Assembly: GCA_015661045.1 (NCBI GenBank)
Contig: JACVQG010000021.1
Span: 1 to 14,232 of the forward strand
Length of the DNA stretch: 14,232 nucleotides
Source: Dehalococcoidia bacterium
Lineage (GTDB): Bacteria > Chloroflexota > Dehalococcoidia > JACVQG01
Direction: 5' to 3'
This document shows positions 1-12,979 of this stretch, piece after piece. Below the pieces are notes generated by a model. That model did not search any database. It saw only the letters and a program-made list of their open reading frames with translations, and was not told the origin of the DNA. Position numbers and translations under genes: made by a program. Numbering within the stretch: the stretch's first letter is position 1; every line of letters starts with the position of its first letter.

Positions 1-659
1 ACGGACTCGTGGATGGAAACGTCCACCCATTGTCCCACACCCAGCCTCTCTCGTGCCTGAAGGGCGATAAGGGTGCCGATAGCGGCGTGCATACCGGCGT
101 GAAGATACGACTGGGGGACACCGATGCGCAGCGGTGGGCGGTCCGGGTCTCCTGTGATGTGCATCAGTCCCCCCATGGCCATGCTCACTAGATCCGAGGC
201 CTGAAACGACTTGTACGGCCCGCTCTGTCCGAAAGGGGTGACTGAGATTAGCACCAGAGCAGGGTTGGTGACACTCAAAGAGTCGTATCCTATGCCAAGA
301 CCCGCTAACCATCCGGGCGCGAAGGACTCTATGACTGCATCGGCTGTCCCGGCCAGCGTAAGGAAGGACTCCCTGTCCTTCGGCTTCGACAGGTCCAGCG
401 TTACCGACCGTTTGCCTGTGTTGAACGCCAGCCAGTAAACACTGTCCTGTCGAGTGTAGCGAAGGCTCCGCTCGTGGAGAGCAGATGCGCCTTTTCCCCC
501 ATAGACCTGCCTGTAACGGGCGGGCTTGCCTCCGGGTGGTTCGACAAGGATGACCTCAGCCCCCAGGTCGGACAGGACTTTCCCCGCCATGAAGCCCTTC
601 TCGTCGGTAAGGTCCAGAATGCGATACCCTTCAAGCGGGCTGTTAGTGGTATCGGTCAT
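1..659 (-). CDS. CaiB/BaiF family CoA-transferase, partial (N-terminal 219 residues)
   Basis: This reading frame is open to the left edge, so the C-terminal part is outside the window. The translation begins MTDTTNSPLEGYRILDLTDE and shows the class III CoA-transferase pattern: an N-terminal Rossmann-like segment (GYRILDLTD, about 11-19; LSDLGAEVILVEPPGG, 29-44), then NTGKRSVTLDL (80-90), the DAVIESFAPG region (107-116), and ISVTPFGQSGPY (138-149). Family members move CoA between carboxylic acids in the cytoplasm; the substrate cannot be read here. The start at 659 is supported by GGAG 9 nt upstream (669-672 on the plus strand) and a promoter-like pair further upstream. The aspartate that carries the acyl intermediate in characterised members is expected in the PxxDxxxG-like stretch, but this protein has PQSYLHAG (182-189), so Tyr185 sits there. 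It may be the first half of a fused two-domain protein or have altered chemistry. The family call is firm. Confidence 0.88.
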   Translation of the reverse strand, partial: MTDTTNSPLEGYRILDLTDEKGFMAGKVLSDLGAEVILVEPPGGKPARYRQVYGGKGASALHERSLRYTRQDSVYWLAFNTGKRSVTLDLSKPKDRESFLTLAGTADAVIESFAPGWLAGLGIGYDSLSVTNPALVLISVTPFGQSGPYKSFQASDLVSMAMGGLMHITGDPDRPPLRIGVPQSYLHAGMHAAIGTLIALQARERLGVGQWVDVSIHES

Positions 660-765: not shown

Positions 766-974
766 TGACAATACTCATTAAATATCATGTTTGCAATACT
801 GCCGGCATTTTCCGTAATGAAGCTCCACCTTTCCTGATTATCCAGTCAAAACCCCCTGTTTATGTAAACTGTAGCTAATTACCTACCACCCCATATTTTT
901 CAATCTTAGATATATAAATGTTTGTAAGCTGAAGTAATTAATTGGACAATATATAGGCAAACTGTTATCTTTGG

Positions 975-983
975 TGATATAAT
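975..983 (+). promoter_or_regulatory. Extended -10 element upstream of the truncated tRNA-Ser copy
   Basis: TG-A-TATAAT (TATAAT at 978-983) lies 12 bp before the tRNA remnant at 996. It corresponds to the -10 of the intact tRNA-Ser gene at 4655-4660. The retained element means the half gene could still be transcribed. No good -35 was seen. Confidence 0.45.
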
Positions 984-995
984 CTTTTGCGGACA

Positions 996-1034
996 GGAGA
1001 GGTGTCCGAGTGGTTTATGTTGCCGCTCTCGAAA
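996..1034 (+). pseudogene. tRNA-Ser(CGA) 5' half, truncated in the anticodon loop
   Basis: The 39 nt match 4673-4711 of the complete tRNA-Ser(CGA) with one difference (T1020 versus G4697, in the D arm). The acceptor 5' strand GGAGAGG, the D arm, the 5' anticodon strand and the loop CTCGAAA are present. After 1034 the sequence is unrelated, so the 3' anticodon strand, variable arm, T arm and acceptor 3' strand are missing. It cannot make a tRNA; it marks one boundary of the island. Confidence 0.85.
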
Positions 1035-1257
1035 TTTGCTATCAGGTGTCATAAACAGTGGTTTTAGATACGAAACAGAACGTTTGTGGCAGTTGCTAAA
1101 ACCCTGGTTTGAAGCTAGAGTGCTTTTTGGTGATGTCCCGTTATTTCTAGTCCATTAGCAAATTATTAGCAAATTCGTAGATATGGTTTAAATCTGAGGC
1201 AAAAATATAAACTTTTGCCATCTATAGGGCTGAAGTCCCTTCTTTGCATAAAAGCAG
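1035..1257. other. Gene-free stretch at the left end of the island
   Basis: No plausible gene lies here on either strand. The only structure is an 11-bp tandem repeat at 1154-1175. Sequence 660-805, on the other side of the left repeat, holds only the CoA-transferase promoter and ribosome-binding site. Confidence 0.5.
1154..1175 (+). repeat. Two tandem copies of an 11-bp repeat (ATTAGCAAATT)
   Basis: ATTAGCAAATT occurs at 1154-1164 and again immediately at 1165-1175, 120 bp inside the left island boundary. It might be a recombinase arm site or protein-binding iteron, but two copies are little evidence. Confidence 0.5.
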
Positions 1258-1887
1258 ATGCTAGTTTTCGTTGACGAATCGGGAGACCCTGGACTCAAGA
1301 TAGACGCTGGCTCAAGCCGATACTTCGTGATAGCCCTGGTGGTCTTCGAGGATAACGAGGAAGCCGGGGCGACAGACAAACGTATTGAGCTTTTACGGCG
1401 CGAGTTGCGATTGGACCCCCGCTTTGAGTTTCGCTTTAACCACTGTAACAAGGACTTCCGGGAGCGTTTCCTTGTCGCCATAGCGCCGTACGAGTTCTTC
1501 TATTACGGGATCGTTGTTGACAAGCACCCAAACAAGTTGAGGGGGCCGGGCTTTAAATACAAGAATTCTTTCTACAAGTATGCAAGCAGTCTTGTCTTCC
1601 AGAACGCGAAGGCATATCTAAGCAATGCCATAGCGGTCATAGATGGCAGCGGCAGCAGGGACTTCAGGAGAGAATTGGCAAGCTATTTGAAGAAGCGCAC
1701 CAACGACCCGCAGCAGCGCTATATCCGGGAGGTTAAGCTTCAAAACTCTTTGGGAAATAACCTGCTACAAATGGCTGATATGGTGGCCGGTGCCATTCAT
1801 AGAAGCTTTGGGGAAAAGCCAGATGCCAACACATACAGAGGGATAATTAAGCACCGTGAAGTCTATGTCCAACTCTGGCCCAAATAA
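1258..1887 (+). CDS. DUF3800 family protein (predicted RNase H-like fold)
   Basis: This 209-residue protein has the family signature: VFVDESGDPG at residues 3-12 (acidic pair Asp6/Glu7), a second acidic position in AIAVIDGSGS (Asp129), and the C-terminal helix LLQMADMVAGAIHR with Asp174. These fit the predicted metal-binding acidic set of DUF3800, often described as RNase H-like. The biochemical role of the family is not established; members are common on prophages, islands and near defence genes. Length is typical and the frame looks intact. The start is the first in-frame ATG before the DESG motif; there is no clear Shine-Dalgarno sequence. It stands alone on the plus strand inside the tRNA-flanked island and is followed by a palindrome at 1902-1919. 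The family call is firm, the function unknown. Confidence 0.87.
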   Translation: MLVFVDESGDPGLKIDAGSSRYFVIALVVFEDNEEAGATDKRIELLRRELRLDPRFEFRFNHCNKDFRERFLVAIAPYEFFYYGIVVDKHPNKLRGPGFKYKNSFYKYASSLVFQNAKAYLSNAIAVIDGSGSRDFRRELASYLKKRTNDPQQRYIREVKLQNSLGNNLLQMADMVAGAIHRSFGEKPDANTYRGIIKHREVYVQLWPK

Positions 1888-2147
1888 AAACCCCAACCCT
1901 AGTCCCGATGAATCGGGACACGCGCACCATACGGTGACAATTCGGGTTGAGGTCAATTCCACTTTTATTATAGGCCACTGGTTGATTTTGTCAACATTCT
2001 GATGTCTTTATTCCAAGTTGGGGTAGGGGGGCAGCGGCCACACATGATTTAGTATAAAATGCGTCCAGTTGTAGCCTACTAGACTGGGGGTATTTTCCCT
2101 CACAATTAATCAACAGGCAGATCGGGAGAGGACGGACAGGTTATGCT
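1888..2147. other. Intergenic region with one palindrome, no gene seen
   Basis: Between the DUF3800 gene and the minus-strand HTH gene there is the palindrome at 1902-1919 and otherwise no convincing coding or RNA feature. Confidence 0.5.
1902..1919. terminator. Palindrome downstream of the DUF3800 gene
   Basis: GTCCCGAT and ATCGGGAC form a perfect 8-bp inverted repeat with GA between, starting 14 bp after the DUF3800 stop. It has no T tract, so it may be a repeated intergenic palindrome rather than a true terminator. Related palindromes lie at 8500-8513 and 12980-12999. Confidence 0.45.
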
Positions 2148-2336
2148 CTAATGCTCTTTTATCCATTGGATAAGGTCTTCTTTCAAAAACACGCGTTTTT
2201 TGCCTATCTTATGTGAAGGTAACCCCTCATTCATAAGCTTATATATAGTCTGATGACTAATTGCTAGAAACTCCTGCGCCTCTGCAAAGGTAAGAAATAT
2301 CCGCTCTATAGCCCCCTCTGGTTTCTTTCTTCCCAT
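2148..2336 (-). CDS. Excisionase-family small HTH DNA-binding protein
   Basis: This is a 62-residue protein. Residues about 15-60 (LTFAEAQEFLAISHQTIYKL ... KKRVFLKEDLIQWIKEH) match the MerR/excisionase-like helix-turn-helix family (HTH_17): the first part is the HTH, and the KIGKKRVFLKEDLIQWI part is the wing and following helix. Such proteins act as recombination directionality factors or small regulators, usually on mobile elements. The ATG at 2336 is preferred because AGGAG lies 8 nt upstream; a GTG at 2345 would start inside that ribosome-binding site. It is divergent from the exported nuclease cassette, with about 160 bp between them, so it could regulate that promoter. No integrase partner is visible in the island. 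Confidence 0.85.
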   Translation of the reverse strand: MGRKKPEGAIERIFLTFAEAQEFLAISHQTIYKLMNEGLPSHKIGKKRVFLKEDLIQWIKEH

Positions 2337-2417
2337 TTTGACCACTCCTAGCCTGACTATTAGGTAATGGTAGAGTGTTGGGATTGATTAGGCACAAATA
2401 GACGATAATAGATGATT

Positions 2418-2458
2418 ATTGACATTAAGCCGTTTGGCGTTATAATGTTGCTGTCAAT
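2418..2458 (+). promoter_or_regulatory. Sigma70 promoter with possible operator for the exported nuclease cassette
   Basis: TTGACA (2419-2424) and TATAAT (2441-2446) match both consensus hexamers exactly with a 16-bp spacer; transcription should start near 2453, about 47 nt before the lipoprotein ATG at 2500. A perfect 7-bp inverted repeat, ATTGACA (2418-2424) and TGTCAAT (2452-2458), brackets the promoter and could be an operator, perhaps for the divergent HTH protein. The promoter is seen directly; the regulator is inference. Confidence 0.75.
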
Positions 2459-2499
2459 CCAAAAAAGAAATGGGGAAACAGGAAGGGGGGCGCAAGGCC

Positions 2500-2925
2500 A
2501 TGTTTACGAAGGTCATAGCTGTTCTTTTGCTTGTCCTGATAGTCTTATCCGGGTGCACGCCCAAAATCACCCAGCCACCTCCCGAAACCAGTCCGACTCA
2601 GTCGCCAAAGTCAGGAACGCAAACACCCGTCATACCTAGTCCCGAAGCGAAAAATAATATTGGCAAGCGGGTAACAGTAGAATTAGTAGTAGCCGACACC
2701 CGCTACGCCAGTGGGTCAAGGGGACAGCCAACTTTCCTTAACGACAAGCCCTACCCCAACCATAACTTCACTGTAGTTATATGGGGCAGGGATAGGTCAA
2801 AGTTTGGCACCCCGGAACGGTCCTTCAAGGGAAAACTCATACGGGCCAGTGGGCTAGTGGAGTCGTTTCAGGGGAAGCCACAAATAGTTGCTAATGATCC
2901 TTCGCAGATACAGGTTATGGATTAG
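2500..2925 (+). CDS. Lipoprotein with OB-fold-like domain
   Basis: The 141-residue product has a lipoprotein signal peptide, MFTKVIAVLLLVLIVLSGC, with lipobox LSGC and Cys19 as the lipidated residue. A Pro/Ser/Thr-rich linker follows (20-50), then a domain at about 51-141 with the pattern GKRVTVELVV, PTFLNDKPYPNHNFTVVIWG, FKGKLIRASGLVESFQGKPQ, IVANDPSQIQV. This resembles small OB-fold nucleic-acid-binding-type domains; the assignment is by pattern only. The ATG at 2500 is preferred over an ATG at 2470 because it begins the signal peptide directly and follows a G-rich ribosome-binding site at about 9 nt. It is the first gene behind the promoter at 2419-2446, and its end overlaps the thermonuclease gene by 32 nt. 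It should sit on the outer face of the cell membrane. Confidence 0.75.
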   Translation: MFTKVIAVLLLVLIVLSGCTPKITQPPPETSPTQSPKSGTQTPVIPSPEAKNNIGKRVTVELVVADTRYASGSRGQPTFLNDKPYPNHNFTVVIWGRDRSKFGTPERSFKGKLIRASGLVESFQGKPQIVANDPSQIQVMD

Positions 2926-3385
2926 CGTCCTTTTTGGTGTAGGTGTGATAGTTGCCTACTGGTGGTTGGGGCCATTGGCTCCGGCCTCGCTGGTTTATGC
3001 TAATCGTGTGATAGACGGCGACACAATTGAAGTCAATGGCATTTACAGAGTGCGATACATCGGTATTGATACCCCTGAAACCGTCCATCCCACTAAGCCA
3101 GTACAGTTCTGGGGGCCTGAAGCATCTCAAAGGAACAAAGAACTCTCGGAGCGAAAGTTGATTTTCCTTGTGAGAGACGGACGGGACAAGGACGACTACG
3201 ACAGATTGTTGCGCTACATTTACCTGGCAAACGGCGTGAACATTAACGCCCAATTGGTTGTAGAGGGCTACGCTTACTATGCAAACTATGGCGATGGTTT
3301 CCGCTTCCAATCCGATTTCCTTCAATTAGAGCTGGAAGCAAGGGATGCGAGACGAGGACTTTGGCAGAATACCCCGAAACGCTAA
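2894..3385 (+). CDS. Membrane-anchored thermonuclease (SNase-like)
   Basis: The 163-residue protein has one N-terminal hydrophobic segment (about 8-26), probably an uncleaved anchor or signal, then a staphylococcal-nuclease domain. Compared with S. aureus nuclease the key positions are present: the IDGDT calcium-site motif (Asp43), Arg54, Asp59-Thr60, Glu62 in GIDTPET, and Arg104 in DDYDR. HPTKPVQFWGPEAS (65-78) matches the family's conserved loop. These give a calcium-dependent phosphodiesterase that cuts DNA or RNA, here most likely outside the cytoplasm. The ATG at 2894 is chosen; a TTG two codons earlier is possible. The gene starts inside the end of the upstream lipoprotein gene, so translational coupling is likely. 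It is 21 nt from the next gene. Function and family are confident; the biological target is unknown. Confidence 0.92.
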   Translation: MILRRYRLWISVLFGVGVIVAYWWLGPLAPASLVYANRVIDGDTIEVNGIYRVRYIGIDTPETVHPTKPVQFWGPEASQRNKELSERKLIFLVRDGRDKDDYDRLLRYIYLANGVNINAQLVVEGYAYYANYGDGFRFQSDFLQLELEARDARRGLWQNTPKR

Positions 3386-3406
3386 ATCTTAAGCAAAGGG
3401 GGTGTT

Positions 3407-3895
3407 ATGGTGCGTTATTATATGGCTGTAGTCTTCTTGGCTTTCCTAGTCCTTTTCTCTGCTTGTCAGGGGCCACCAGGTCTGGCAGGGCCGTTAGGCC
3501 CACAAGGCGAAAGGGGGTTACAGGGGCCAGTAGGACCGCAGGGGCCTCCCAGCCCACCTAGCCCCAGAATGGAAGCTCTGGAGAGGGAGATAAAAGAGTT
3601 AAAGGCTGAAGTCGTAAGGCTCCAGTCCATGAAGAGCGTGCCGGAAACCTTCCCGACTGCAACACCGAAGGGGCCGATAGTCCCCACACCTCGCCCAACA
3701 TCTACCTCCCCGGTGTTTACGCCCGTGCCCCCTCGAACCCCAGCTCCGCAAACTCCGGTTCCGCCTTCCACCTTGATTCCACAAAGGCATCCGTCCGGTG
3801 CTACAGCTCTTTGCCGAGATGGGACATACAGTTACAGTGCCAACCGAAGCGGCACATGTTCTCGACATGGAGGCGTTGCGCAGTGGCTGCGATAA
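3407..3895 (+). CDS. Collagen-like lipoprotein with C-terminal DUF3761 domain
   Basis: The 162-residue protein is modular. A lipoprotein signal (2-19, lipobox FSAC, Cys20) is followed by nine Gly-X-Y triplets (22-48, such as [16 protein letters not shown]), a short heptad-like helix (54-75, [18 protein letters not shown]), a Pro/Thr-rich spacer (80-127), and a C-terminal domain (about 131-162) with CRDGTYSYS and [13 protein letters not shown], matching DUF3761. The collagen triplets and coiled coil suggest a trimeric stalk that holds the C-terminal domain away from the membrane. The gene is third in the cassette with the OB-fold lipoprotein and the nuclease. The ATG at 3407 has a G-rich ribosome-binding site just upstream. 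The DUF3761 role is not known; its Cys pair and HGG motif suggest metal binding or a disulfide, which is inference. Confidence 0.85.
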
Positions 3896-4246
3896 GCGAT
3901 GCTAGTCTCCAGGATAAAAAACTGGCGGCGTTAGAGCGTTGGGACGGGGATTGTGATACCCCCACGCCCAAACATGGGGTTTTTGGCACCCTTCTTGGGG
4001 GGTAACGGGGGGGTAAGGGTTGAGTCCCCTTTAAATCTACCCTATCATTATTCAGGCTGCTAAGGGGGTAAGGGTTAGATGTTGTTTTCGGTGTTAGTTC
4101 ACCTTATCTTGCCCAAGGGCGTAGGGGGATTAGGGTAATGAGCATTCATGCCCCCACCAGGTCTTCCCCCTTATCTGGCTCATGCTCTTTTTCGTCAGCA
4201 AGTGGCCTATGCCGGTGCTGGACACATCATAAGCCCAGGGGCTTCT
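3896..4246. other. Gene-free G-rich stretch with telomere-like G runs
   Basis: No credible gene is seen between the collagen-like lipoprotein and the minus-strand Cys-rich gene. The plus strand carries repeated G runs: GGGGGGTAACGGGGGGGTAAGGG (3997-4019), GGGGGTAAGGGTTAG (4064-4078) and GGGGGATTAGGGTAATG (4124-4140). The first can be drawn as a canonical G-quadruplex (four runs of three or more G, short loops). Confidence 0.6.
3960..3984 (+). terminator. Candidate intrinsic terminator of the exported nuclease cassette
   Basis: CCCCA (3960-3964) can pair with TGGGG (3975-3979) over a 10-nt loop and is followed by five T (3980-3984). It lies 65 bp after the stop of the collagen-like gene. The stem is short, so this is tentative. 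Confidence 0.35.
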
Positions 4247-4492
4247 TCACTTATTTTTAAACTCATGCTTTTGGGCCTGTCCCCGGCAGATATAGCAGAT
4301 ACCATGCACATGATACTGTTTCATATGGCCGCAATCCCCGCAATATTGCTGTCTAGCTTCGATTGCTTCTTTCAGGGTTTTAACGTCTTGCGGGCCTGAT
4401 TGTTGCACCATCTTAGTGTGCTGCCTACAAAAACGGTGATAATTGGACAGTATAACCCGGGCTGGTTTCCTGCATTGTTTGCCATTTTCCAT
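4247..4492 (-). CDS. Small Cys/His-rich putative zinc-binding protein
   Basis: I do not recognise the 81-residue product as a named family. It has a CxxC pair at Cys51/Cys54 and another at Cys66/Cys69 (YCGDCG ... GICYICRG), as expected for a zinc ribbon, plus Cys7, Cys22 and His25 (KQCRKPA ... HRFCRQH) that could form a second site. The start is well supported: AGGTGGAG lies 7 nt before the ATG at 4492. The start codon and ribosome-binding site fall inside the right 229-bp repeat. In the left repeat the ribosome-binding site is kept but the ATG is ACG and the frame diverges after about three codons, so only this copy can be expressed. It is divergent from tRNA-Ser(CGA). A nucleic-acid-binding role is possible, not shown. 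Confidence 0.65.
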   Translation of the reverse strand: MENGKQCRKPARVILSNYHRFCRQHTKMVQQSGPQDVKTLKEAIEARQQYCGDCGHMKQYHVHGICYICRGQAQKHEFKNK

Positions 4493-4711
4493 AATGAAGC
4501 TCCACCTTTCCTGATAATCCAGTCAATACCAACTGTTTATGTAAACTATAGCCAATTAACTACCACCCCATATTTTTCAATCTTAGATATATAAATGTTT
4601 GTAAGCTGAAGTAATTGATTGGACAATATATAGCCAAATTGCTATCCTTGATGTTATAATCGTTTGCGGACTGGAGAGGTGTCCGAGTGGTTTATGGTGC
4701 CGCTCTCGAAA
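4483..4711 (+). repeat. Right copy of 229-bp imperfect direct repeat
   Basis: It aligns with 806-1034 without gaps at about 92% identity by eye. This copy runs from the third codon of the Cys-rich gene, through the AT-rich spacer and extended -10, to the end of the tRNA-Ser(CGA) anticodon loop, where the full tRNA continues. Confidence 0.85.
4652..4660 (+). promoter_or_regulatory. Extended -10 promoter element of tRNA-Ser(CGA)
   Basis: TG-T-TATAAT with TATAAT at 4655-4660 lies 12 bp before the tRNA 5' end. A good -35 is not evident at the right spacing, which is compatible with an extended -10 promoter. Confidence 0.5.
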
Positions 4712-4760
4712 AGCGGTCTCCGGTTATACTGGAGCGTGGGTTCGAATCCCACCCTCTCCG
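4673..4760 (+). tRNA. tRNA-Ser (anticodon CGA)
   Basis: The 88-nt gene folds as a class II tRNA: acceptor GGAGAGG (4673-4679) with CCTCTCC (4753-4759), discriminator G4760, anticodon stem CCGCT/AGCGG around the loop CTCGAAA, anticodon CGA at 4707-4709, a long variable arm closed by CTCC/GGAG, and T arm GTGGG/CCCAC around TTCGAAT. It reads UCG codons. The CCA end is not encoded. It is the right boundary of the putative island; the last base of the anticodon loop (4711) is where the repeated segment ends. Its 3' 25 nt are identical to those of the neighbouring tRNA-Ser(GGA). Confidence 0.97.
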
Positions 4761-4839
4761 CTGACAAAATGGTTTCATTTTGAAGCTGAGAAAACTAATC
4801 TTAGATATTTATCGGTTAATTACACACCCATAGATTTGC

Positions 4840-4929
<90 letters not shown>

Positions 4930-9592: not shown

Positions 9593-10630
9593 ATGAACAA
9601 GCCTAACAAGGACCTCACCACCCCCTCAGGCATTCCTATCAAGCCTGTCTATACCGGAGCGGATACCGTCGGGATAGACAGCGACAGGGATCTCGGCCTG
9701 CCCGGGAAACCTCCATATACCAGGGGCATCTATCCCAATATGTACCGGGGTAAGCTATGGACTATCCGCCAGTTCTCCGGTTTTGGTACGCCTGAGGAGA
9801 CCAATCAGCGTTACAAGATGGAATATGGCCTGGGGCAAACCGGTTTCTCTATCGCCTTTGACGCCCCCACCGAAAGCGGACTTGACCCCGACGATCCCCG
9901 TGTAGAGGGCGATGTGGGGATGGGGGGAGTGCCGGTCTCCTCACTCCAGGATATGGAGATAATGTTCGAGGGGCTGCCTATCGATAGAGTAAGCACTGCC
10001 GTTGTAGCCTCACCGTGGACAGCCTGCGCCCTATCAGCTATGTACTTTGCCATGGCCGTGAAACGGGGCATCCCGCTGCAGCAACTTGACGGCACCACCC
10101 AGAATGACCTTTTACTTTTTACCGGATGCTGTAAGCTCACTGATATTATCTCACCCGGCAAGATGCTCCGGCTATGCGTGGATGTCGTGGAATGGTGTGC
10201 CCGGAACACACCGCGCTGGCACCCGGTCAGCTTCGCCTCCTATAACTACAGGGAGAACGCTATCACCGCCCCCCAGGAACTTGGCCTGCTCTTTGCTAAC
10301 GCTGTTGCTTACATCGACGAGGAGCTTGGGCGACACCGCCTGGGTATAGATGATTTTGCCCCTACCATTTCATTTCATCTGGCATCCCACAACGACATCC
10401 TGGAGGAAGTGGCCAAATTTAGAGCGGCCCGCCGTATGTGGTACAAACTGATAACTGAACGCTACCAGGCTAAGAACCCCCGTTCAGCCCTGTTCCGCTT
10501 TCATGTTCAGACCTCCGGCTCTACCCATACCTACCAGCAACCGTTTAATAACATCGTCCGCATAGCTTATCAGACACTGGCGGCGGCCCTGGGTGGCGCC
10601 CAATCCATCCACGCCTGTTCTTATGCATAG
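9593..10630 (+). pseudogene. Acyl-CoA (methylmalonyl-CoA) mutase large subunit, 5' part, frameshifted
   Basis: Residues 1-344 are the catalytic TIM-barrel part of the B12-dependent mutase family: MYRGKLWTIRQFSGFGTPEETNQRYK (50-75), GQTGFSIAFDAPTESG (81-96), GGVPVSSLQDMEI (111-123), RFHVQTSGSTHTYQQPFNNI (302-321). The enzyme rearranges methylmalonyl-CoA and succinyl-CoA or a similar acyl-CoA pair and works with the separate B12 subunit at 11470-11868. The ATG at 9593 has AAAGG 9 nt upstream. An exact 65-bp duplication (10560-10624, 10625-10689) shifts the frame, and TAG at 10628-10630 ends translation; removing one copy joins this part to 10690-11265 as a 535-residue protein, normal for a split large subunit. 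Active-site positions: Tyr51 and Arg193 align with Tyr89 and Arg207 of characterised mutases, but Asn218 replaces His244, and the TYxFP-type segment is replaced by CCKLTDIISP, so the substrate may differ. Confidence 0.85.
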
Positions 10631-10689
10631 CTTATCAGACACTGGCGGCGGCCCTGGGTGGCGCCCAATCCATCCACGCCTGTTCTTAT
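10560..10689 (+). repeat. Exact 65-bp tandem duplication inside the mutase gene
   Basis: Positions 10560-10624 and 10625-10689 are identical (unit GCATAGCTTATC ... CTGTTCTTAT). The unit is 65 bp, not a multiple of three, so the second copy causes the frameshift and the stop at 10628-10630. Identity of the copies points to a very recent event or to an assembly error. Confidence 0.95.
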
Positions 10690-12169: not shown

Positions 12170-12979
12170 ATGTTTCTAGCGCTTCAGGTCTATTTAGAAA
12201 AAGTGTTGCCTGGCTACCACCGGTATCTGGACGCCGAGCGCCATCTTTCCCGCTATACAATCAGGAACTATTTTAATGACCTGCACAGCTATTTTAATTT
12301 CCTGTCAGAACAGGAAATCACCTCGCTGGAAGAGGTGGACCATGCCCTGTTGGACCCGATGAAGTCGGCTATAAGCCCCAAGCTTCAACAGCGGCTCCCT
12401 TCGTTTTTAAGCCATGAGGAGGCCCGCAATCTGGTGGAAGCCCCCGACCTGTCCACCCCTCAGGGCTTGCGGGACAGGGCTTTTCTGGAGCTTTTATACG
12501 CCTCCGGGCTGCGGGTGAGTGAGCTTGTCGGCCTGGATTTCTCAGATATTAACTTAACAACCAGAGAACTCCGTGTTCTGGGGAAAGGTTCTAAAGAGCG
12601 GATAGTGCTTATGGGAGAGCCTGCCGTGCAAGCTGTAGAGACCTACATCGAAAAGGGCCGTCCTCAGCTTTCAGACCATGCAAGGGGCCAGGCCCTGTTT
12701 ATTAACCGATATGGGCGGCGGTTCTCGCAACGGCTGGTGCAACTCCTGGTATCGAAATACGGCCGGTTAGTAGGTTTAACCAAAAAGGTGCATCCCCACC
12801 TGCTGCGCCACACCTTTGCCACCCATATGCTGGATGGAGGTGCAGATTTGCGGGTCGTCCAGGAGCTTATGGGGCACACCAATCTAGCCACTACCCAGGT
12901 CTATACACATGTCAGCCAGAGCCAGGCGCGGAAGGTCTATCTGACCGCCCACCCCCTGGCCAAGCAGCCAAAGGAGTAG
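12170..12979 (+). CDS. XerC/XerD-like tyrosine recombinase with shortened N-terminal domain
   Basis: The 269-residue protein has a complete catalytic domain: Arg115 in ASGLRVSELVGL, the Lys hairpin VLGKGSKER (Lys139/Lys142), HPHLLRHTFATH (His210, Arg213), GHTNLATTQVYTHVS (His236, nucleophile Tyr245). The Xer-type C-terminus KVYLTAHP is also present. Such enzymes resolve chromosome dimers at dif sites or act for mobile elements. Compared with XerC/D (about 295-300 residues) the SAM-like DNA-binding domain lacks about 40 residues: after SLEEVDHALL (52-61) the sequence jumps to DPMKSAISPKLQQRLPSFL (62-80), which normally follows the second half of that domain. The loss is in frame. The ATG at 12170 has AAGGA 9 nt upstream. 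Whether it still recombines DNA is unclear; a fully functional Xer may exist elsewhere. Confidence 0.88.
   Translation: MFLALQVYLEKVLPGYHRYLDAERHLSRYTIRNYFNDLHSYFNFLSEQEITSLEEVDHALLDPMKSAISPKLQQRLPSFLSHEEARNLVEAPDLSTPQGLRDRAFLELLYASGLRVSELVGLDFSDINLTTRELRVLGKGSKERIVLMGEPAVQAVETYIEKGRPQLSDHARGQALFINRYGRRFSQRLVQLLVSKYGRLVGLTKKVHPHLLRHTFATHMLDGGADLRVVQELMGHTNLATTQVYTHVSQSQARKVYLTAHPLAKQPKE

Follow-up and report, generated by a model that had tools for sequence, protein, structure and literature searches.

A tRNA-Ser(CGA) island in a Dehalococcoidia genome and an integrase lineage that replaces the 5′ half of tRNA genes

Results

An island between two copies of a tRNA-Ser(CGA) upstream region

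The window analysed here, the whole 14,232-nucleotide stretch of contig JACVQG010000021.1 from a Dehalococcoidia bacterium (assembly GCA_015661045.1), carries an island of accessory genes that directly precedes a complete tRNA-Ser(CGA) gene (Table 1). It is an entire contig of a metagenome-assembled genome that comprises 373 contigs and is 67% complete. The island is bracketed by an ungapped 229-base direct repeat (806-1034 and 4483-4711; 92% identity, spacing 3677, E 3.4e-92). ARAGORN places the anticodon of the complete tRNA at position 35, so that its seven-base loop corresponds to 4705-4711 and the repeat match ends on the last base of the loop. In the left copy, the TATAAT box starts 18 bases ahead of the tRNA. 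The repeat search and ARAGORN thus bear out the initial annotation, which had described a gapless match of about 92% at these positions that stops at the last anticodon-loop base. It had also named similarity extending past 806 as grounds for rejecting an island; a gapped alignment beyond this position revealed no real extension, with an anchored score of 5.0 that was reached or exceeded (at least 5.0) in 13 of 25 shuffles.

No integrase was found among the six main open reading frames (ORFs) between the repeats: four match the Pfam families DUF3800, HTH_17, SNase (staphylococcal-nuclease-like) and DUF3761, and two match no family. An integrase search of the window's own genome returned, on the window contig, a XerC-like gene as the only hit (match 12335-12916; gene 12170-12979). 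We rejected it as the integrase of the element, because it sits near topA in relatives too and is therefore not island cargo. The earlier description of accessory genes without an integrase between the repeats consequently holds. The HTH_17 protein, a candidate excisionase, has a counterpart in an element at locus L066, with 83% identity at the DNA and 81% at the protein level. GC content is about 60%, and host-like, in the left flank, compared with 43-59% in 400-base windows across 1001-4600.

The left arm marks an element family joined to tRNA 5′ halves

Several short tRNA-Ser matches in 60 relatives end on the same loop base, and the sequence that follows the truncated tRNA in the window is itself conserved: the query 1028-1165 matches 16 of 393 genomes of the class, including its own. 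Of 21 such left arms, drawn from 19 genomes, 18 directly follow a tRNA 5′ half that ends at the junction (90-100% identity; offset 0, with one at +1), whereas the maximum identity at 400 random positions was 63%. The tRNAs ahead of the arms are Ser(CGA), Ser(TGA), Arg(CCT), Arg(TCG), Thr(CGT), Phe(GAA), Trp(CCA), and Lys(CTT). In the remaining three, two of which share a contig, the arm is preceded by a reversed tRNA-Glu 3′ end; a non-tRNA target, considered for L099 and L101, proved wrong, as the arm there follows the reverse complement of the tRNA-Glu 3′ end.

Most left arms contain paired direct repeats, the letters of which differ among elements (TTAGCAAA, AACGCCAA, GTCGCCAA), and repeats of one motif class occur both in left arms and in right arms behind integrase genes. 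We also considered the left arm as a structured RNA or a tRNA intron and rejected both, since it has no Rfam match at the gathering threshold and no consensus structure in 19 of the 21 copies (alignment A2, which leaves out L065, running off its contig, and L101a). In viral contigs, a left-arm 19-mer gave three matches, none of them preceded by a tRNA half as judged by eye.

Integrase-bearing relatives and the polarity of integration

Relatives with an integrase reveal the opposite end of the family. In L108 (tRNA-Phe, 7.9 kb) and L103 (tRNA-Trp, 11.2 kb), a terminal tyrosine integrase ORF overlaps the intact tRNA gene on the same strand. Integrases of this kind, at E 1e-60 or better, are present in 87 of the 393 class genomes. 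From the 30 best class-genome loci and the best 80 of 533 loci from a named collection we obtained 108 integrases after removing two duplicates (L142 and L207, the same loci as L131 and L132, which were excluded from the trees). A co-oriented tRNA gene lies immediately downstream of the integrase in 26 of the 108, with ten different anticodons among the targets; the usual arrangement is found in 47, one of which has the tRNA upstream of the integrase, and 35 are unassignable. A tree of 54 integrases requires four polarity changes (4-5 over bootstrap replicates; well-supported branches alone force four), compared with an average of 15 in shuffles. Of the 26 integrases of 5′ polarity, 21 come from genomes of the window's class and five from the named collection, four labelled Dehalococcoidia or Dehalococcoidales and one Chloroflexi. 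L159, labelled Phycisphaeraceae, falls inside the main clade, its polarity among the unassigned. In viral contigs, the best 80 of 276 loci comprise 3 with 5′ polarity, 6 with the usual one, and 71 that could not be judged. One locus, L270, is an apparent phage with its integrase at tRNA-Ser(CGA); its portal, terminase, and capsid genes were recognised by eye from the ORF sequences.

Replacement of the tRNA 5′ half is thus real and recurrent in Dehalococcoidia. The 18 of 21 left arms that follow a tRNA 5′ half, together with the integrase-bearing relatives that abut a restored tRNA, identify a true integration type, in agreement with the unusual mode that the initial annotation had suggested, in which the element replaces the 5′ part of the tRNA gene.

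The window's own genome contains one close relative of these integrases (C105; L135/L360), located beside tRNA-Arg(CCT) in the opposite polarity. The repeats in its right arm are identical to TTAGCAAATTATTAGCAAA of the window's left arm, and the C105 integrase might bind that arm. Mobilisation of the window element in trans is possible.

Short modules of 1.2-7.2 kb that by eye lack an intact integrase occur in L068 and L226. With the tRNA oriented on the plus strand, L226 (2178-18365) and L068 (7455-15841) hold tandem arrays of such modules between tRNA 5′ halves; their ends bear relics of the integrase C-terminus, and the arrays resemble cassettes grown at one tRNA. A whole integrase was seen in L226 only in the unit adjoining the intact tRNA and in L068 not at all. 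At L229 (16116-18159), a 2.0-kb element holds little beyond the integrase between a tRNA-Arg half and the restored tRNA. In L074 (5947-6780), a 277-residue ORF, by eye seemingly a different tyrosine recombinase, closely precedes a Ser-type right arm and tRNA-Ser(CGA).

Element ends and the promoters of restored tRNAs

In a comparison of both ends across loci, 13 of 31 sequences, the window included, had a restored tRNA with a 5′ half ahead of it, and the other 18 had none within the DNA examined. A half ends within one base of the anticodon loop in 12 of the 13 and three bases short of it in L231; one of the three halves in L226 ends six bases short, and the BLAST match of the window continues at low identity for 13 bases beyond the loop. 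When the 700 bases ahead of both tRNA copies were compared, nine junctions (L104, L108, L162, L224, L227, L228, L229, L231, and the first half of L068) had no upstream similarity, and L103 had only a displaced stretch of 65 bases. Upstream similarity that reaches the tRNA, or comes within a few bases of it, characterises L225 (170 bases, 75%), L226 (three halves, 182-224 bases, 82-90%), the second half of L068 (128 bases, 84%), and the window (189 bases, 92%). The upstream segments of L225, L226, and L068 are element right ends and contain a C-terminal integrase relic (best E 3e-7 to 4e-34); the integrase-less modules of L068 and L226 and the scar at L225 all keep this 3′ relic. In the window copies, no integrase relic rose above chance (best E 0.002-0.003 over 108 queries, in short pieces), and neither the right nor the left copy has an arm-site pair; the pair in the left arm is perfect and unique in the window.

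The leader of the window tRNA, TATAATCTTTTGCGG, is as in the same-genus genome G001 and unlike that of four Ser-clade right arms, which has TGAAGC-like letters (TGAAGCTA-like). Searched against the 393 class genomes, the right copy matched its own genome, 39 bases in G001, and 19-42 bases at E 0.002-0.01 in 31 of 391 others.

In the relatives, by sequence, the DNA immediately upstream of the restored tRNA comes from the element. Of 27 right ends, four have a −10-like box (TAnnnT, at least 5/6) starting 10-26 bases before the tRNA, and these four belong to the Ser clade; among displaced copies the proportion is 13 of 22, and among 2000 random positions it is 4.5%. The 27 do not include the Ser(CGA) ends L240 (TAGAAT) and L362 (without a clear box). 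In four Ser-clade integrase elements, the box lies 15-16 bases before the restored tRNA. At the other 23 of 27 right ends, the tRNA would be transcribed from the integrase gene, and the cell may therefore rely on transcription that enters from the element's integrase end.

Origin of the island in the window

Of the features that define the family, the window has the left arm fused to a tRNA 5′ half that ends at the anticodon loop. A tyrosine integrase directly upstream of the restored tRNA is absent from 1035-4672, as is a C-terminal relic, and the right-arm pair of arm sites is absent from the window. Because integrase and relic are both lacking, we class the island as a decayed derivative and not as a complete member. 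The initial annotation had offered decay as one explanation, and the lack of an integrase, as in other short modules of the family, fits it. Set against the description of a cis-mobilizable element (CIME), the island has no integrase and keeps the left attachment junction (attL), with a right end that lacks arm sites.

We favour, with a probability of roughly one half, the explanation that the island is a decayed member of the 5′-half-replacing family with a host flank, promoter plus half gene, duplicated at its right. Intact members have a tyrosine integrase as their last gene, and their architecture suggests that this enzyme would recombine the element attachment site (attP) with the anticodon loop. 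The host's own 5′ half is thereby displaced and would stay joined to the conserved left arm at the opposite end of the element. In the relatives, the new 5′ half lies directly behind the integrase gene, and the sequence ahead of the restored tRNA is therefore element DNA. The window retains the left junction (996-1034 joined to 1035 onward) and the excisionase-like gene and appears to have lost the integrase and the right arm; ahead of its complete tRNA at 4673 stands a second copy of the apparent host tRNA promoter. This arrangement could have arisen when one illegitimate join at 4482/4483 linked the element to a target copy without an insertion, supplied by a related strain or by a tandem tRNA duplicate; the integrase end would thereby have been removed and the native promoter restored to the tRNA. 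The right-hand repeat looks unlike the usual right end of such an element: an arm-site pair and a relic of the integrase 3′ end are lacking, and the leader is that of the host genus. For these reasons, duplication of a host promoter together with the half gene accounts for the 229-base length more plausibly than an attachment site of that extent.

Several observations weigh against this explanation, and some of them would fit a tandem insertion of two related elements, each contributing its right end as one of the 190-base copies: 806-1034 would be that of an earlier element (its interior deleted or off the contig), and 1035-4711 the second element. At 190 bases, the window copies match in length (128-224 bases) what L225, L226, and the second unit of L068 have next to each of their tRNA copies, in all cases element right ends, whereas the nine other junctions have no such repeat; this agreement speaks for the tandem reading. 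In the DNA examined, L225 shows one half only and is thus an example of a right-end scar for which no second half is visible. Arrays of the family contain modules without an intact integrase and, in post hoc comparisons, each window copy has a 13-mer in common with the right arm of L270 and is similar to the left arm in inverted orientation (p about 0.003-0.008). An empty site, which the initial annotation had proposed to seek in related genomes, was not found for the same species. G001 has a tRNA-Ser(CGA) without a half copy within the 12 kb read, but its upstream genes differ from those of the window, so that it informs on the leader only, and the native origin of the left flank is not proven. 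Nevertheless, the repeats of L225, L226, and L068 hold an integrase C-terminal relic and those of the window do not, neither window copy has the arm-site pair expected of a right end, and the leader is of the G001 host type and not of the type seen in Ser-clade elements. Moreover, a chromosomal CoA-transferase gene that G001 also has lies 147 bases from the start of the left copy, and among the 393 class genomes the segment 4483-4672 was found at length only in its own. We therefore consider two successive insertions a possible but rather unlikely origin.

It is less probable still that attP took up 190 bases of host promoter and 5′ half and that the element still integrates, with an integrase acting in trans, bringing along a ready tRNA promoter. 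The four Ser-clade elements with a −10 box close to the restored tRNA, the identical TTAGCAAATTATTAGCAAA repeats beside the C105 integrase, and the 81-residue ORF across 4482/4483, whose 93% identical homolog has the same N-terminus, would accord with such a capture; the right side, however, has no arm-site pair, and the C105 integrase sits at tRNA-Arg(CCT) in the opposite polarity. The fragmented and incomplete assembly also raises misassembly of a duplicated tRNA segment, which we regard as very improbable: the left junction of tRNA 5′ half and left arm recurs in 16 other genomes, and at the right junction the ORF homolog keeps its N-terminus, though the repeat encodes only about the first three codons.

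Further features of the window

The remaining features are compiled in Table 1. Positions 1-700 share 78% identity with the same-genus sequence G001:C122. A perfect 65-base tandem duplication lies at 10560-10689, inside a methylmalonyl-CoA-mutase-like gene (named by eye); its length is not divisible by three, the reading frame stops at 10630, and alignment with G001 suggests a single copy there, so that it is either a real lesion or an assembly error.

Table 1. Coordinates of features in and around the island (window positions)
Feature	Position	Strand	Basis or remark
CoA-transferase family III gene, N-terminal part, running off the contig; chromosomal flank	3..659	-	Pfam PF02515
Left copy of tRNA-Ser(CGA) upstream region	806..995	+	TATAAT 978-983; native promoter, or alternatively the right end of an older element
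Truncated tRNA-Ser(CGA) 5′ half (attL)	996..1034	+	97% to tRNA-Ser(CGA) 5′ half, offset 0; ends on last loop base
Putative crossover segment, anticodon loop CTCGAAA, common to 4705-4711	1028..1034	+	ARAGORN loop; 18/21 left arms join a tRNA 5′ half there
Conserved left arm of the element family	1035..1200	+	Matches of query 1028-1165; alignment A2 of 19 copies; no predicted RNA structure
Paired direct repeats TTAGCAAATTATTAGCAAA, presumed arm-type integrase sites	1155..1173	+	Sole 16/16 match in window
DUF3800 protein, cargo	1258..1887	+	PF12686, E 8e-14
DUF3800-IX RNA motif, at 3′ end of DUF3800 gene, opposite strand	1885..1954	-	RF02968, 71.9 bits
HTH_17 protein, candidate excisionase / directionality factor	2148..2345	-	PF12728, E 3.5e-12
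151-residue ORF, cargo, without Pfam match; lipoprotein-like signal at N-terminus (by eye)	2470..2925	+	ORF list and Pfam
Staphylococcal-nuclease-like (SNase) protein, cargo	2888..3385	+	PF00565, E 2e-22
DUF3761 protein with collagen-like stretch, cargo	3407..3895	+	PF12587, E 1.5e-15; collagen match below its cut-off
81-residue ORF, first codons spanning the island/repeat junction	4247..4492	-	Single database homolog, 93% identical over full length, same N-terminus
Right copy of tRNA upstream region	4483..4672	+	Host-type leader, TATAAT
Complete tRNA-Ser(CGA); 3′ half 4712-4761	4673..4761	+	ARAGORN and Rfam
tRNA-Ser(GGA), then dprA and topA; conserved chromosomal side	4840..4929	+	ARAGORN and comparison with relatives

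Discussion

Islands with 5′ tRNA fragments are known but rare. In the Islander collection, a 5′ tRNA gene fragment is found in 159 of 3919 islands and anticodon-centred sites in 2083 (PMC4383910). Like the relatives described here, its 5′-fragment islands have a tyrosine integrase and a 5′ fragment displaced upstream of an intact tRNA; in contrast to the window, where an integrase is lacking and the repeat runs 190 bases beyond the tRNA, Islander rejects integrase-less candidates (PMC4383910). A review of archaeal integrases states that restored bacterial tRNAs retain their promoter with very few exceptions and presents pTN3-like integrases as the 5′-half case (PMC8371274). As in our family, pTN3-like integrases use the tRNA 5′ half as their target attachment site (attB), and expression of the restored tRNA is ascribed to the integrase promoter, an arrangement seldom met in bacteria (PMC8371274). 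Those integrases are archaeal, however, whereas the present ones are bacterial, use tRNAs with ten anticodons, and flip polarity inside one integrase clade.

Closer in host range are the ssrA islands of Dehalococcoides, which occur in related bacteria as tandem arrays with proposed cis-mobilizable, integrase-less units between direct repeats; they differ in their ssrA target, serine recombinase (DsiB), and 20-bp repeat (PMC3146451). The tRNA islands of Dehalococcoides were described with 3′ fragments (PMC2764846). Phages with tRNA-dependent lysogeny likewise break an essential tRNA upon integration and compensate with element DNA, but carry a whole tRNA gene instead of a 5′ half (PMC10865867). 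Among the matches listed in our literature search, outside which most subscription journals lay, we recognised no paper that describes this integrase group. Within the literature searched, this lineage is new, as are its repeated switches of polarity and target and its restored tRNAs mostly without a nearby promoter.

Integration into tRNA genes is usually deemed harmless on the ground that the tRNA retains its original promoter. The present integrase lineage departs from this rule time and again, at tRNAs with ten anticodons, and since the same clade also holds the usual polarity, it provides a natural comparison for the evolution of attachment-site polarity. We propose tentatively, and with more doubt than confidence, that this Dehalococcoidia tyrosine-integrase clade repeatedly reversed its attachment site on the palindromic anticodon arm, that the 5′-half-replacing forms thereby control transcription of an essential host tRNA, and that loss of the integrase end would be tolerated only if the host promoter is regained. 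The clade thus lets one ask whether mobile DNA becomes needed by controlling a tRNA, and the window may represent a possible end state, a crippled element at a tRNA that has regained its native promoter.

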